A stretch of DNA of 64,000 nt from Neorhizobium petrolearium (GTDB taxonomy: Bacteria; Pseudomonadota; Alphaproteobacteria; Rhizobiales; Rhizobiaceae). This document shows positions 12,902 through 63,704 of the stretch, piece after piece. The translations under genes were made by a program, and so were the position numbers. Position 1 is the stretch's first letter, and each line of letters begins with the position of its first letter. The stretch spans positions 248,001 through 312,000 of the forward strand of contig NZ_JAGGJW010000005.1 in assembly GCF_017873175.1 (NCBI RefSeq), in the 5' to 3' direction. The notes below the pieces were generated by a model. That model saw only the letters and a program-made list of their open reading frames with translations. It searched no databases and was not told the DNA's origin.

Positions 12902-13183
12902 ATGGAACCGACAATTAACGCCCTTGGATATCGCATGGTTGGACAGGATGCGCTCATCATCATGAGCGACGGCAAAAGCTGCCAACCCGTCCAGATCTCA
13001 CGCGATGCCTTGACAGGCATCCAATCCCCTCCCCGGTGTGATGCTACCCGGCTTGCACAATATCTCGATGTCTTCGCCGAGATCGCAACCCGAAAGATCG
13101 AAACCGAAAAGGCTGCATTCGACGGACGCATATGGATCACTGGTGACGACGTGCGGGCCTGGCGTTCGCTTAACAGGAAATGA
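12902..13183 (+). CDS. Hypothetical protein, weakly DUF1488-like
   Basis: This 93-residue protein starts at an ATG with GGAG seven bases upstream. It has no membrane segment or signal. The pattern is a short beta-rich N-terminus (YRMVGQDALIIMSDGKSCQPVQISRDAL) followed by a helix (RLAQYLDVFAEIATRKIETEKAAF) and RIWITGDDVRAW. It is loosely reminiscent of DUF1488 proteins common in rhizobia. Function is unknown. It lies 194 bases after the export gene and may be transcribed separately. A longer reading from 12743 has no better start. Confidence 0.5.
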   Translation: MEPTINALGYRMVGQDALIIMSDGKSCQPVQISRDALTGIQSPPRCDATRLAQYLDVFAEIATRKIETEKAAFDGRIWITGDDVRAWRSLNRK

Positions 13184-60136: not shown

Positions 60137-60655
60137 TCACTCGGCGTCGCGAGTGCTTTCGAACAGGAACCATGCGCGACGCTCGGCCTCATCCACCCAG
60201 TTTTCAATCAGGCTCGCTGTGGCGATGTCACCATGTTCATCGCAGAGCTCGTGTGTCTCCTTCAGCAGCGAGACCAGCATGAGATTGTCATTGCGAAGTT
60301 CAGCCAACATGTCCTTGGGCGTGACGAAGGTGGCATCATTGTCGAGGAGCCGCTGTACCCGGGAGATATGACCGATCGAACGGATCGTCGTGCCGCCGAT
60401 CTTGCGAGCCCGCTCGGCGACGTCGTCGGTCATCGCAAAGATCTGCTCGCCCTGCTCATCGAGCATCAGGTGATAGTCGCGGAAATGCGGCCCGCTCATA
60501 TGCCAATGAAAGTTCTTGGTTTTGAGATAGAGCGCAAAGATATCCGCCAGCAGCGCGGTCAATGCACCGGCGATATCCGTTGTTGCATTTGAGCTCAGAG
60601 TTGTCGGCGTTGCGAGAGGCGACTTGCGATGTTTTTCAGTAAGCGTGCGGTCCAT
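60137..60655 (-). CDS. dps: Dps, DNA-binding ferritin-like protein
   Basis: This 172-residue protein has the Dps ferroxidase region [48 protein letters not shown] and the C-terminal [24 protein letters not shown]. Dps dodecamers oxidise and store iron with peroxide and protect DNA in stress. The family length is normal. ATG 60655 has GGAGA upstream; an ATG 12 bases earlier is an alternative. It lies 68 bases upstream of the haloperoxidase-like gene on the same strand. Confidence 0.92.
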
Positions 60656-60764
60656 GACGGTCTCCATTGGGGGGTGCAGGCTGTTGGAGACTTTTTAGAC
60701 GACGACGCCAGACCACAATATCCAATGCTTGGCTAGGCGAACCCACACCTTGGTATAGTTTCGC

Positions 60765-60923
60765 CAGGCGACCGCTGAAGCTACACATAATGCGTCTTCG
60801 ATCCCCTCCCAAGAAGACAGGCTGGGCACCATGGCCCTGACGGTTCAGGCATCCCCTCCCCTGAACCTCGGATGTCGCGATCCGGTTAAGGCCATCCCAG
60901 CCACCTGGGATGGCCTTTCTTTT
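60765..60923 (+). ncRNA. Candidate trans-acting sRNA with two anti-Shine-Dalgarno loops
   Basis: Three consecutive hairpins on the plus strand define this RNA. Hairpin 1 pairs GTCTTC (60794-60799) with GAAGAC (60813-60818). Hairpin 2 pairs GGTTCAGG (60842-60849) with CCTGAACC (60860-60867). Both loops expose the same decamer ATCCCCTCCC, complementary to a Shine-Dalgarno sequence. The third is an intrinsic terminator at 60888-60923. A possible promoter is TTGGCT (60729-60734) with GTATAG (60753-60758), 18 bases apart. The layout recalls the alphaproteobacterial ar14-type sRNAs, which block ribosome binding. The 5' end is estimated. Confidence 0.65.
60888..60923 (+). terminator. Intrinsic terminator of the candidate sRNA
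   Basis: AAGGCCATCCCAG and CTGGGATGGCCTT pair perfectly (13 bp) across a CCAC loop and are followed by TTTCTTTT. This is the strongest intrinsic terminator in the window. No protein gene on the plus strand ends before it. Confidence 0.88.
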
Positions 60924-60996
60924 AAGGACGTATGAGATTGAGTTTGCACGGCAATATTCGACATTGCGTTTGCTTTTTATCGACCGGAATGGCTTG

Positions 60997-62607
60997 ATGG
61001 TGCCATTGAAATCCAAGTGGGGGAAAGCATTGCGATCGCTCGCTCTTGTGAACCCGAAACGGCGTCTGCCGGCACGCCATGAGATCGGCATTCTTTCGTT
61101 CGCTGTTGTCCTTACAGCGACGGTTTTCTATCTCGACACTTTCACCGACATCCATAGCGCGCTGGCGACCCTCTATGTCATCACGCTGCTTCTGTCGGCA
61201 GAAACCCTGACGGAAAAGGGAACGCTGTCGCTGACGGCGATGTGCATCGGCCTGGCAGCATTCTCCTATGCAGTCGCCCATGGGCTGCAAGCCGACCTCG
61301 CCGCAACATTGCGTCTGACAGTGGCGGTCGCCGCGATGCTGATCACCTGCGCCTTGATCATCCGCAACCAGCGCGCCCGCCTGGACCTGGTAAAATTCAA
61401 TGTGGCTCTGCAGAGCAGCGAAGAACGCTACCGAACGATTTTCGAGCAGAGTCGCGTTGCTCTCTGGGAGCGCGATTATTCGCAGGTCCGGACTATGCTG
61501 ATGGCGCTCAAGGCCGATGGCGTCGAAGACCTCGGCGCTCATGTCAGGGCGAATCCCGACTTTCTTGAACAATGTATCACCCGCGTCCCGACCGTGGCCG
61601 CGAACGCGGCGGCACTCGAACTGCTCGGCAATGCGAGCGGCGAAAATGCCAGCTCGATGCGCCGCTTCATTGCCCAGAATGATGCGACCTTTCTTGAACT
61701 CATCGTGGCAATTTTTAACAATGAAACACATTTTGAGGGCAAGGGCAGCATCATCACCAGCGATGGCACCCACAAGCATGTGCTGCTGACTGTCGGCTTC
61801 CCGGAAGACCCCGCCAATTTCAACCGCGTTATCGTCGGCATGTTCGACATTACCGAGCGCGAACTGGCCCAGAAGGCATTGTTCGAGGCTCAGGCGGAAC
61901 TGGCTTTGGCATCGCGCGCGGCAACCGTCGGCGCGCTGTCGGCGTCACTCGCCCACGAACTCAACCAGCCGCTCGGTGCGCTGGTGGTCAACGCCCAGAC
62001 CCTGTTGCGCTGGCTCGATCGTGACCCGCCGGATCTCGAGGCTGTTGCCCGCTCGGCCGAGCGCATCGCGCGCGACAGCCAGCGCGCCAGCGACATCATC
62101 CAGAGCACGCGGTCCATGCTCGGCAAGCGGGCGCCGGTTCGTGAGCCGGTGTCGCTGGTCGATCTGGTCGGAGAGACGCGTGCGCTGATGGAGGGCGAGC
62201 TTGCCAGGAACCGGATCACGTTCGAGACCCGCACAGCATCCAACATATCCCCCGTCAGTGCCGTCCGGATCGAGCTGCAACAAGTGTTGATCAACCTTAT
62301 CACGAATGCCATCCAGGCCATGGGCGAGACGCCGGACGAACTGCGGCGGATCTCGGTCTTTATCGAACCGGCTGCTGCGGAAACTGTGGCAGTCCGCATT
62401 CATGACAGCGGCCCTGGCCTCAGCGCGGACATCCTCGCGAAATTGTTCAAGCCGTTTCACACCACCAAGGACACCGGCCTCGGCATGGGCCTTGCCATCT
62501 GCCGCAGCATGCTGGAAGCCCGTGGCGGCGCCCTGACCGCCAGCAATCACGCCGAAGGCGGCGCCCTGTTCGAAATGATCGTACCGATCGAGGCCCTCGA
62601 TGAATGA
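60997..62607 (+). CDS. Membrane PAS sensor histidine kinase
   Basis: The 536-residue kinase has an N-terminal membrane domain of three or four segments (IGILSFAVVLTATVFYLDTF ... LRLTVAVAAMLITCALII). A PAS-type sensor (about 140-310), a HisKA dimerisation helix with the phosphorylated His in SLAHELNQPLGALVVNAQTLLRWL, and an HATPase domain (LINLITNAIQAM, HDSGPGLSADILAKLFKPFHTTKDTGLGMGLAI) follow. This is the FixL/NtrB-like class. A longer reading from ATG 60910 is rejected, because that codon lies inside the terminator stem. The stop overlaps the response-regulator start by eight bases. Confidence 0.85.
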   Translation: MVPLKSKWGKALRSLALVNPKRRLPARHEIGILSFAVVLTATVFYLDTFTDIHSALATLYVITLLLSAETLTEKGTLSLTAMCIGLAAFSYAVAHGLQADLAATLRLTVAVAAMLITCALIIRNQRARLDLVKFNVALQSSEERYRTIFEQSRVALWERDYSQVRTMLMALKADGVEDLGAHVRANPDFLEQCITRVPTVAANAAALELLGNASGENASSMRRFIAQNDATFLELIVAIFNNETHFEGKGSIITSDGTHKHVLLTVGFPEDPANFNRVIVGMFDITERELAQKALFEAQAELALASRAATVGALSASLAHELNQPLGALVVNAQTLLRWLDRDPPDLEAVARSAERIARDSQRASDIIQSTRSMLGKRAPVREPVSLVDLVGETRALMEGELARNRITFETRTASNISPVSAVRIELQQVLINLITNAIQAMGETPDELRRISVFIEPAAAETVAVRIHDSGPGLSADILAKLFKPFHTTKDTGLGMGLAICRSMLEARGGALTASNHAEGGALFEMIVPIEALDE

Positions 62608-63241
62608 CGCCAAGAAGTCTGCAAAAGCCCCGGCAAACGACACACCCGTCGTCTATATCGTTGATGACGACCCCTCTATACGCGAGGCGCTGGTCGATCT
62701 TTTCCTGTCGACCCGCACGGATGCGACATCCTTCGAAAGCGCGCAGGACCTGCTCGATAATGCCGATCTCAAACGACCGGGCTGTATCCTGCTCGACGTG
62801 AGATTGCCCGGTGCGAATGGCCTGGATTTCCAGCTGCATCTGGAAAAGCTCGGCAACCAGATGCCGATCATCTTCATGACCGGCCATGGCGACATACCGA
62901 TGAGTGTGCGCGCGATGAAAGCCGGCGCGGTCGATTTCCTCGCCAAACCGTTCCGGGACCAGGACATTCTTGATGCCGTTGCGGCGGCGTTTAAGAAGGA
63001 CCGGGAAGTCCGCCTGCAATCTGCAGCCAATGATGCTGTCGCCAAGCTGGCCAGTACATTGACGCCCCGCGAACATGAAGTTATGGCGGCCGTGGTCAAG
63101 GGCCTGATGAACAAACAGATCGCCTTCAACCTTGGCATCAGCGAGATCACGGTCAAACTGCATCGCGGCAATGTGATGCGCAAGATGGAGGCGCGCTCGG
63201 TGGCGGATCTGGTGCGCAAGGCCGAGTTGCTGGGGCTTTGA
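62600..63241 (+). CDS. FixJ-like response regulator
   Basis: This 213-residue regulator has a receiver domain (VVYIVDDDPSIREALVDLF; phosphoacceptor Asp66 in CILLDVRLPG; IIFMTGHGDIPMSVRAMKAGAVDFLAKPF) and a LuxR HTH (LTPREHEVMAAVVKGLMNKQIAFNLGISEITVKLHRGNVMRKM). It is the cognate partner of the kinase whose stop it overlaps. The targets are unknown. Confidence 0.92.
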   Translation: MNDAKKSAKAPANDTPVVYIVDDDPSIREALVDLFLSTRTDATSFESAQDLLDNADLKRPGCILLDVRLPGANGLDFQLHLEKLGNQMPIIFMTGHGDIPMSVRAMKAGAVDFLAKPFRDQDILDAVAAAFKKDREVRLQSAANDAVAKLASTLTPREHEVMAAVVKGLMNKQIAFNLGISEITVKLHRGNVMRKMEARSVADLVRKAELLGL

Positions 63242-63314: not shown

Positions 63315-63704
63315 GTGGCAAGGCCCAAAAAATTGTCCAGAAAACCAGTCATAGCAATCGTTGACGACGATCAGTCGATCCGCGAAGCCCTTGACGATCT
63401 CGTTTTGTCATGCGGCTACAGGAGCCGACTGTTTAGCTCGGCGGAAGCTTTCCTCGCCGATGATGATCGCGCTGCGATCGATTGCATGCTCGTGGATGTC
63501 AAAATGCCGGGCCTGAGCGGCATCGAATTGCAGGCGGTGTTGAATTCGCAGAATGCACCCAAGCCGCCAATGATTTTCATGACGTCCTATCGGGACGAAC
63601 GAACGCGGGCGGCTGCGATGGACGGCGGCGCTTTTGCCTTTCTCGGCAAGCCAGTCGACTTCGACCAATTGGTGCGGTGTCTGGAACAGGCGCTGAAGCA
63701 CTGA
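63315..63704 (+). CDS. Single-domain response regulator receiver protein
   Basis: The 129-residue protein is a receiver domain alone: VIAIVDDDQSIREALDDLV, phosphoacceptor Asp61 in CMLVDVKMPGLSG, MIFMTSYRDERTRAAAMDGGAFAFLGKPVDFDQLVRCLEQ. It has no output domain. The start is GTG 63315. It may compete for phosphate or link the kinase upstream to another regulator, which is inference. Confidence 0.85.
   Translation: MARPKKLSRKPVIAIVDDDQSIREALDDLVLSCGYRSRLFSSAEAFLADDDRAAIDCMLVDVKMPGLSGIELQAVLNSQNAPKPPMIFMTSYRDERTRAAAMDGGAFAFLGKPVDFDQLVRCLEQALKH

Follow-up and report, generated by a model that had tools for sequence, protein, structure and literature searches.

A probable regulatory RNA with two anti-Shine-Dalgarno loops, encoded beside a sensor-regulator pair and a stress-protection gene in the Rhizobiaceae

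Genetic organization of the locus

The DNA stretch analysed here (the window, 64,000 nucleotides) is part of contig 5 of a 6.97-Mb genome, G000. Positions 60690-60960 are 98.9% identical to the corresponding sequence of a 0.92-Mb plasmid of Neorhizobium petrolearium OS53. In this region, between a dps-type gene and a divergently oriented kinase operon, lies a sequence that very probably encodes a regulatory RNA of about 130 nt (Table 1). The dps gene is annotated in relatives as "DNA starvation/stationary phase protection protein". The response regulator (RR) encoded next to the kinase combines a receiver domain with a GerE helix-turn-helix, as expected of a FixJ/NarL-type regulator, and FixJ is its top NCBIfam match, with a score under the cut-off of that family.

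The gene order hydrolase-dps / sRNA / kinase-FixJ-type RR-RR recurs in relatives, usually followed by a UBP-type zinc-finger gene, the place of which is taken in N. petrolearium by nap genes. The dps gene is missing at locus L006 and lies further away at L010. Related root and soil bacteria very probably keep the RNA beside a sensor-regulator pair and a stress-protection gene. At L085 (Agrobacterium sp. CGMCC 11546) no kinase is listed in the gene table of the record and the kinase sequence aligns in two different frames, which may reflect either a disrupted gene or a sequencing error.

Table 1. Features of the candidate sRNA locus (window coordinates)
Feature	Position	Strand	Remarks
dps-type ferritin gene	60137..60655	-	Divergent from the sRNA; Pfam Ferritin, 2.1e-25
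Probable -10 of divergent dps promoter, TAAAAA	60692..60697	-	Predicted; mean information 1.49 bits, n=19
Dyad, site 1, TATCCAATGCTTGGCTA	60719..60735	.	17 bp; 6/7 complementary pairs; mean information 1.76 bits, n=19
Operator-like dyad of sRNA promoter, site 2, ACCTTGGTATAGTT	60747..60760	+	Centre at about -40.5
Probable sRNA -10, TACACA	60782..60787	+	TA at same offset in 25/26 promoters
sRNA	60794..60923	+	About 130 nt; start predicted, end from terminator; covariance model matches, covariation, fold
Hairpin 1	60794..60818	+	Stem GTCTTC/GAAGAC; ATCCCCTCCC in loop at 60801-60810
Small hairpin	60824..60837	+	GGGC/GCCC; two-sided changes at 4/4 pairs in 19-sequence alignment A5
Hairpin 2	60842..60867	+	Stem GGTTCAGG/CCTGAACC; ATCCCCTCCC in loop at 60851-60860; two-sided changes at 8/8 pairs in A5
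Hairpin CGGAT/ATCCG	60869..60884	+	93.5% of cells paired; two-sided changes at 2/5 pairs
Intrinsic terminator	60888..60923	+	13 pairs at 60888-60917; tail TCTTTT
Sensor histidine kinase gene	60997..62607	+	HisKA and HATPase_c; start as in N. petrolearium record
FixJ-type response regulator gene	62600..63241	+	Response_reg and GerE; candidate activator of the sRNA
Single-domain response regulator gene	63315..63704	+	Domain search

RNA architecture and covariation

An earlier note on this DNA had proposed an sRNA in which two hairpins expose an identical decamer and are followed by a 13-bp terminator with a T tract. Both features were borne out. The decamer ATCCCCTCCC occurs three times in the window, against 0.19 expected, a count equalled in none of 100 shuffles; the count of the shorter core CCCCTCCC (three, against 2.52 expected) is unremarkable. 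When positions 60794-60923 were folded, five hairpins were obtained with both decamers in loops, their mean unpaired probability being 0.99 for the first and 0.90 for the second, the last base of which is paired. The terminator was recovered with all its 13 pairs and the T-rich tail. ATG 60910 falls within its 3' arm and, as the near-identical N. petrolearium record starts the kinase at the equivalent of 60997, the view that the kinase has no longer start is also supported. As to the third decamer copy (13024-13033), its minus strand reads GGGAGGGGAT before an ATG which opens a frame of only 47 aa.

The fold of 60766-60923 has a z-score of -3.99, none of 200 shuffles being as stable. When the terminator was excluded (60794-60884), the z-score was only -1.63 and 17 of 300 shuffles were as stable. 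Much of the single-sequence stability is therefore that of the terminator, and support for the other hairpins rests on covariation. In alignment A5 (19 sequences), which was fitted to the model and so leans towards the structure, two-sided changes were found at 26 of the 36 pairs, a value reached in none of 500 shuffles; 94.6% of cells pair, and the signal falls sharply when slid by one column. An unfitted, plain MAFFT alignment of seven sequences shows changes on both sides at 5 of the 36 pairs, with 1 of 500 shuffles as high.

These two-sided stem changes, together with indels among relatives and the retention of terminator and loops, make it scarcely credible that the element is protein-coding or a chance structure devoid of RNA function, the overlap of a minus-strand ORF (60636-61091) with the sRNA being what speaks for that explanation.

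On average, stem columns are about as conserved as loop columns (hairpin 1, 0.84/0.73; hairpin 2, 0.79/0.80), which leaves the loop cores as the only part to stand out. A C-rich core is present in both loops in 15 of the 19 sequences, the chance expectation being about 0.15 per loop. Neither loop has such a core at L065. With folding started from hairpin 1, 26 of 33 C-rich cores were at least 70% unpaired; the seven that are not open belong to one or both loops of L005, L009, L010, L012, L014 and the first L066 copy. More loop cores were closed when the fold was started further upstream. Conservation and covariation thus lend good support to the sRNA proposed in the earlier note, with its terminator and its pair of anti-Shine-Dalgarno (aSD) loops. 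Computationally, the RNA is conserved, its stems covary, both aSD loops are C-rich and the terminator is its own.

Relation to known RNA families

At the gathering threshold, Rfam models gave no match in the window. The search with the ar14 model (RF02344; cut-off 58.8 bits), which had been suggested as a check, yielded no match in 60500-61100 at E values up to 10. As a positive control, the same model recovers three ar14 copies (L027, L028 and L029) elsewhere in the same genome at about 102 bits; conversely, our covariance model R1, run on that genome, did not find these three copies. The sRNA is not an Rfam ar14 member. The label "ar14-like" given to it in the earlier note holds for the design, with aSD loops on variable stems and CCUCCUCCC in loop 1 of 7 of the 19 sequences, and fails for membership. 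As the ar14 model failed, we place the sRNA with RNAs of the aSD-loop (cuckoo-like) kind.

Three sets of described RNAs are of use for comparison. NfeR1 of Sinorhizobium meliloti, the ar14 representative, is described as having aSD loops on variable stems and as blocking the Shine-Dalgarno (SD) sequences of its targets (PMC10746234, PMC7143759), and its aSD loops match ntrB (PMC10746234). Our sRNA shares with it the aSD motif in hairpin loops, the variable stems and the alpha-proteobacterial host. It differs in having two aSD hairpins with loops AUCCCCUCCC where ar14/NfeR1 has three identical CCUCCUCCC loops (ar14 copy L029 has three C-rich hairpins), and also in its terminator hairpin, which lacks an aSD motif, in its gene context and in a conserved promoter block of its own; for the NfeR1 promoter an LsrB-type TGCA-N6-GCAT element is reported. 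The cuckoo RNAs SmelA075 and SmelA099 repeat a CCUCCUCCC-type loop on stems that diverge (PMC3927594), a design that resembles ours, whereas here the exact nonamer is confined to loop 1 of those seven aligned sequences and the window has a variant and no exact copy. AbcR1 and AbcR2 (ar15) have two CU-rich aSD motifs in unpaired regions, three stem loops and a location beside lsrB (PMC7143759). Two aSD motifs and a position beside a regulator gene are common to both; unlike AbcR, our sRNA has no Rfam match, and its neighbours and number of stem loops are different.

It could be argued that the sRNA is nevertheless a true, fast-diverging ar14/cuckoo member which is regulated like NfeR1 (LsrB/NtrC), its kinase neighbourhood being incidental. 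The aSD loops on variable stems, the nonamer in loop 1 of some relatives and the sub-threshold ar14 matches over the sRNA at two of seven relative loci (L008 and L086; 26.6 and 26.3 bits) would fit such an origin. We consider it quite improbable, in view of the failure of the Rfam model, which all three ar14 copies in that genome pass, of the failure of R1 to detect those copies, of the terminator without an aSD loop, and of a promoter dyad and an RR linkage that are specific to this sRNA.

In the seven relative loci a sub-threshold anti-hemB match lay twice over the sRNA, and a RAGATH-21 match on the minus strand near the sRNA was discarded as chance. Elsewhere in the genome (L020-L026) there are seven ar35 (RF02346) matches, two of them over the cut-off. 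A literature search returned no description of this sRNA, which is not proof of absence, and the 13 papers that contain the string CTAAGTATAG are all irrelevant by title.

Promoter block and operator-like dyad

Upstream of hairpin 1, the 19 sequences share a highly conserved block with sharp edges (60719-60762). The 5' boundary assigned to the sRNA in the earlier note (60729) lies within this promoter/operator block and is therefore too far upstream; the transcript probably starts near 60794. Two dyads are found in the block. Site 1 has a degree of complementarity (at least six pairs) reached by 0.27% of the 17-mers of the window; with its centre about 42 bp from the predicted dps start, it may serve the divergent dps promoter. 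Site 2, assigned to the sRNA promoter, is the sole match in the window for a slightly looser dyad pattern.

When promoters from related loci were compared, a TA was found to begin exactly 21 bp after the dyad ACC[TA]NNGTATAG[GT]T in 25 of 26 cases, L014 being the exception; the next best offset was found in 8 of 26. These 26 promoters (20 of the sRNA and 6 of the kinase operon) are in many cases orthologous and so not independent. Not counted among the 26 are four sRNA-less kinase loci that keep the block, L084 (near-identical), and sequences resembling the sites that lie 5' of dps or within the intergenic region of L135-L137. Among the sRNA-less loci, the TA at 21 bp is present in L011 and L080 and absent in L007 and L090; it is also absent after the dyads on the dps side in L135 and L137. 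Given the dyad-to-TA spacing, transcription of the sRNA would begin near 60794, where hairpin 1 has its base, and the dyad would stand some 40 bp 5' of this start, as class II activator sites do. Judged by this comparison, the sRNA is provided with its own promoter, as it is with its own intrinsic terminator.

Palindromy of the dyad is variable. The kinase promoters of genomes G207 and G179 carry the perfect form ACCTATGTATAGGT, and the window's site 2 is a weak palindrome (3 of 7 pairs) with a poor -10, TACACA being a weak match to the consensus TATAAT. Over the 17 sites tested, complementary pairs range from 2 to 6 of 7; at least five are found in 1.7% of the 16-mers of the window. In E. coli, the 7-2-7 sites of NarL are inverted heptamers for which a 2-bp spacing is preferred (PMC4549865). 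The putative operator resembles them loosely in its arrangement, and differs in its ACCTA-N4-TAGGT-like sequence and variable palindromy.

About 956 kb of fetched sequence, part of it overlapping, was scanned with a dyad pattern. Promoters of the sRNA slot, including those of loci that lost the sRNA, and kinase promoters were returned. The dyad with its 21-bp spacing was also found 5' of a FixJ-type RR gene (L148, about 11930 on the minus strand; G179), its first base lying 98 bp before the ATG; the remaining matches are one in G003 and one that precedes a CMD-family gene in G253. As the fetched loci are enriched for loci of this kind, the scan is not a genome-wide count. On the whole, computation shows the sRNA promoter to share its dyad and 21-bp spacing with the kinase operons that encode the orthologous two-component system of related genomes.

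A sigma-70 scan predicted no promoter. GTATAGT was considered as a -10 and dropped; given the constant 21 bp to the downstream TA, it is treated as part of the operator instead. An EcfG-type promoter was dismissed by eye, the spacing not being that of the EcfG consensus. With up to three mismatches allowed, the CCAATGC half of the block is unique in the genome. The dyad-half pattern was matched in 1 of 151 genomes, our own, at two sites, the second of which (L083) lacks the upstream block. The first half of the block, searched in 394 genomes of the family, has matches in 60 at up to three mismatches and in seven at 0-1. Among 30 fetched loci of this search, only L034, L057 and L058 (0-1 mismatch) are of the locus type described here; outside those 30, a three-mismatch site in G253 corresponds to its second sRNA copy.

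Distribution in relatives

A DNA search was positive in 3 of 60 relatives and 4 of 57 genomes of the genus, our own being counted in both; in one positive genome (G011) similarity is restricted to the surroundings of the terminator. Searching with the kinase protein gave 12 loci, namely 11 close full-length relatives and the distant L016. The sRNA lies upstream of the kinase at 8 of these 11 related loci, in degenerate form at L010 (55 bits) and L014 (32 bits); L006 keeps only the terminator, and L007 and L011 have neither. Model R1 gave 10 matches, including our own, in 9 of 388 Rhizobiaceae genomes; one of them (L069, 28 bits) was judged spurious by eye. Across 397 genomes of the order, model R2 gave seven matches in six genomes, of which, by eye, L091, L092 and L094 seem spurious and L093 and L095 cuckoo-like. 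The sRNA is present on six of seven plasmid records found by BLAST, the seventh, from Pararhizobium qamdonense, having the promoter block only. No annotated feature lies beneath the sRNA match in these records, whose gene table is without RNA genes and two of which are practically unannotated.

The sRNA is on the same strand as the kinase, about 74 nt separate the end of its terminator tail from the annotated start of the kinase, and loop 2 could pair (-13.2 kcal/mol) with a GUGGGGGA stretch before a downstream TTG. The element might on these grounds be a 5' leader or attenuator of the kinase operon, in which the terminator would set read-through and the hairpins would sense ligands or ribosomes. 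Such a role is very doubtful: copies with no kinase directly downstream exist (the second copy of G253 at L070/L072, G207, two in G179, and Sinorhizobium sp. RAC02, where no kinase match was found within 5 kb of the sRNA), a separate dyad promoter lies before the kinase of G003, 3' of the sRNA terminator, and attenuation leaves two aSD loops unaccounted for.

The two copies in G179 (L142, contig C16, 6769-6899 and 7084-7212) are arranged in tandem adjoining dps, with different stems. The second copy of G253 (L152/L072, contig C165) adjoins a dps fragment, a hydrolase gene and a paralogous kinase-RR pair. Between dps and the kinase of L135, L136 and L137 no R2 match was obtained; a degenerate site-2-like sequence followed by strong hairpins was read there by eye, and a different RNA may occupy the slot of the sRNA at these loci.

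Association with the two-component system

We compared 46 chosen genomes for the presence of sRNA and RR. All ten genomes with a convincing sRNA encode the RR at 70-100% identity. The 26 controls, of other genera, were chosen among genomes for which R1 gave no listed match; a few of them may lie outside the genome draw searched with R1. None of these controls has an RR at 60% identity or above, the best reaching 58%. In G207 and G179 the sRNA and the RR are about 8 kb apart on the same contig. When the sRNA was searched near RRs of at least 60% identity for which no sRNA was yet known, it was found in one of six stretches and one of four genomes: G003 has a diverged sRNA (56.9 bits), with a dyad, upstream of the kinase. 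In G001, G002 and G005, which have the dps/kinase synteny and an RR at 73-75%, there is no R2 match in about 20 kb around the RR, and dyads are kept before the kinase. The RR is present without a complete sRNA in G011, G463 and G247, and G373 has a weak cuckoo-like match (34.4 bits), its best RR reaching only 50%. Nine stretches near weaker RRs (L143-L151) gave 23.3 bits (E 0.007) at L145 and 14.4 bits (E 0.56) at L143; in L151, one pair was flagged by a hairpin-pair finder.

Considering this co-occurrence, the FixJ-type RR is a candidate activator at the dyad. The sRNA could instead be real and the dyad be bound by another regulator, or be part of an unusual sigma-factor promoter, the two-component system being merely a co-regulated neighbour. 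The loose resemblance of the dyad to NarL-type sites, an RR-dyad tie seen as co-occurrence, and the two sRNA-less loci in which the block persists but the 21-bp TA does not leave room for this explanation. We regard it as somewhat unlikely, since kinase operons, and also a gene for a FixJ-type regulator paralogue, are preceded by the dyad, and the presence of the sRNA is accompanied by the RR in every one of the ten carriers.

Proposed role and predicted targets

The explanation to which we give a slightly better than even chance is that the element is a trans-acting sRNA of about 130 nt, the output arm of the adjacent histidine kinase/FixJ-type system, which silences mRNAs through its aSD loops. 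The kinase would sense a stress, and the FixJ/NarL-type regulator would bind the dyad at about -40.5 and switch on the sRNA, and perhaps also dps by way of the facing site 1. By pairing of its loops with GGGAGGGG-type ribosome-binding sites, the sRNA would keep several mRNAs for metabolism and transport from being translated, in the mode of the NfeR1 aSD loops.

A broader proposal, more tentative and a little short of an even chance, is that of a Rhizobiaceae two-component regulon without a prior name, often plasmid-borne. In it, a FixJ-type regulator would act at one operator (ACCTA-N4-TAGGT-like, at about -40.5) to drive both its own kinase operon and an aSD-loop sRNA silencing many SD-rich mRNAs; dps and other protective genes would belong to the regulon. 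The RNA slot would be plastic, stems and even presence varying while the operator stays. Such a system would extend the known aSD-loop sRNAs of alpha-rhizobia (NfeR1, AbcR) by one that serves as a two-component output, and would demonstrate that the cuckoo-type design is not confined to RNAs which the ar14 model recognizes. Because the sRNA, kinase, FixJ-type regulator and stress gene form one conserved unit with a common operator, a single locus allows joint tests of signal, activator, RNA and targets.

The two exposed loops, which carry the complement of GGGAGGGGAU, look built to block the ribosome-binding sites of other genes. The pattern GGGAGGGG-N3-12-ATG occurs at 38 sites in the genome, against 10 for the reversed pattern. 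Thirty of the 38 sites were fetched as loci, 29 were read and nine reading frames were picked. Some of the predicted target sites would stand at the start of metabolic or transport genes: four of the nine N-terminal fragments scored over the Pfam cut-off, with matches to Gfo/Idh, TPP enzyme, FAD_binding_5 and ABC transporter.
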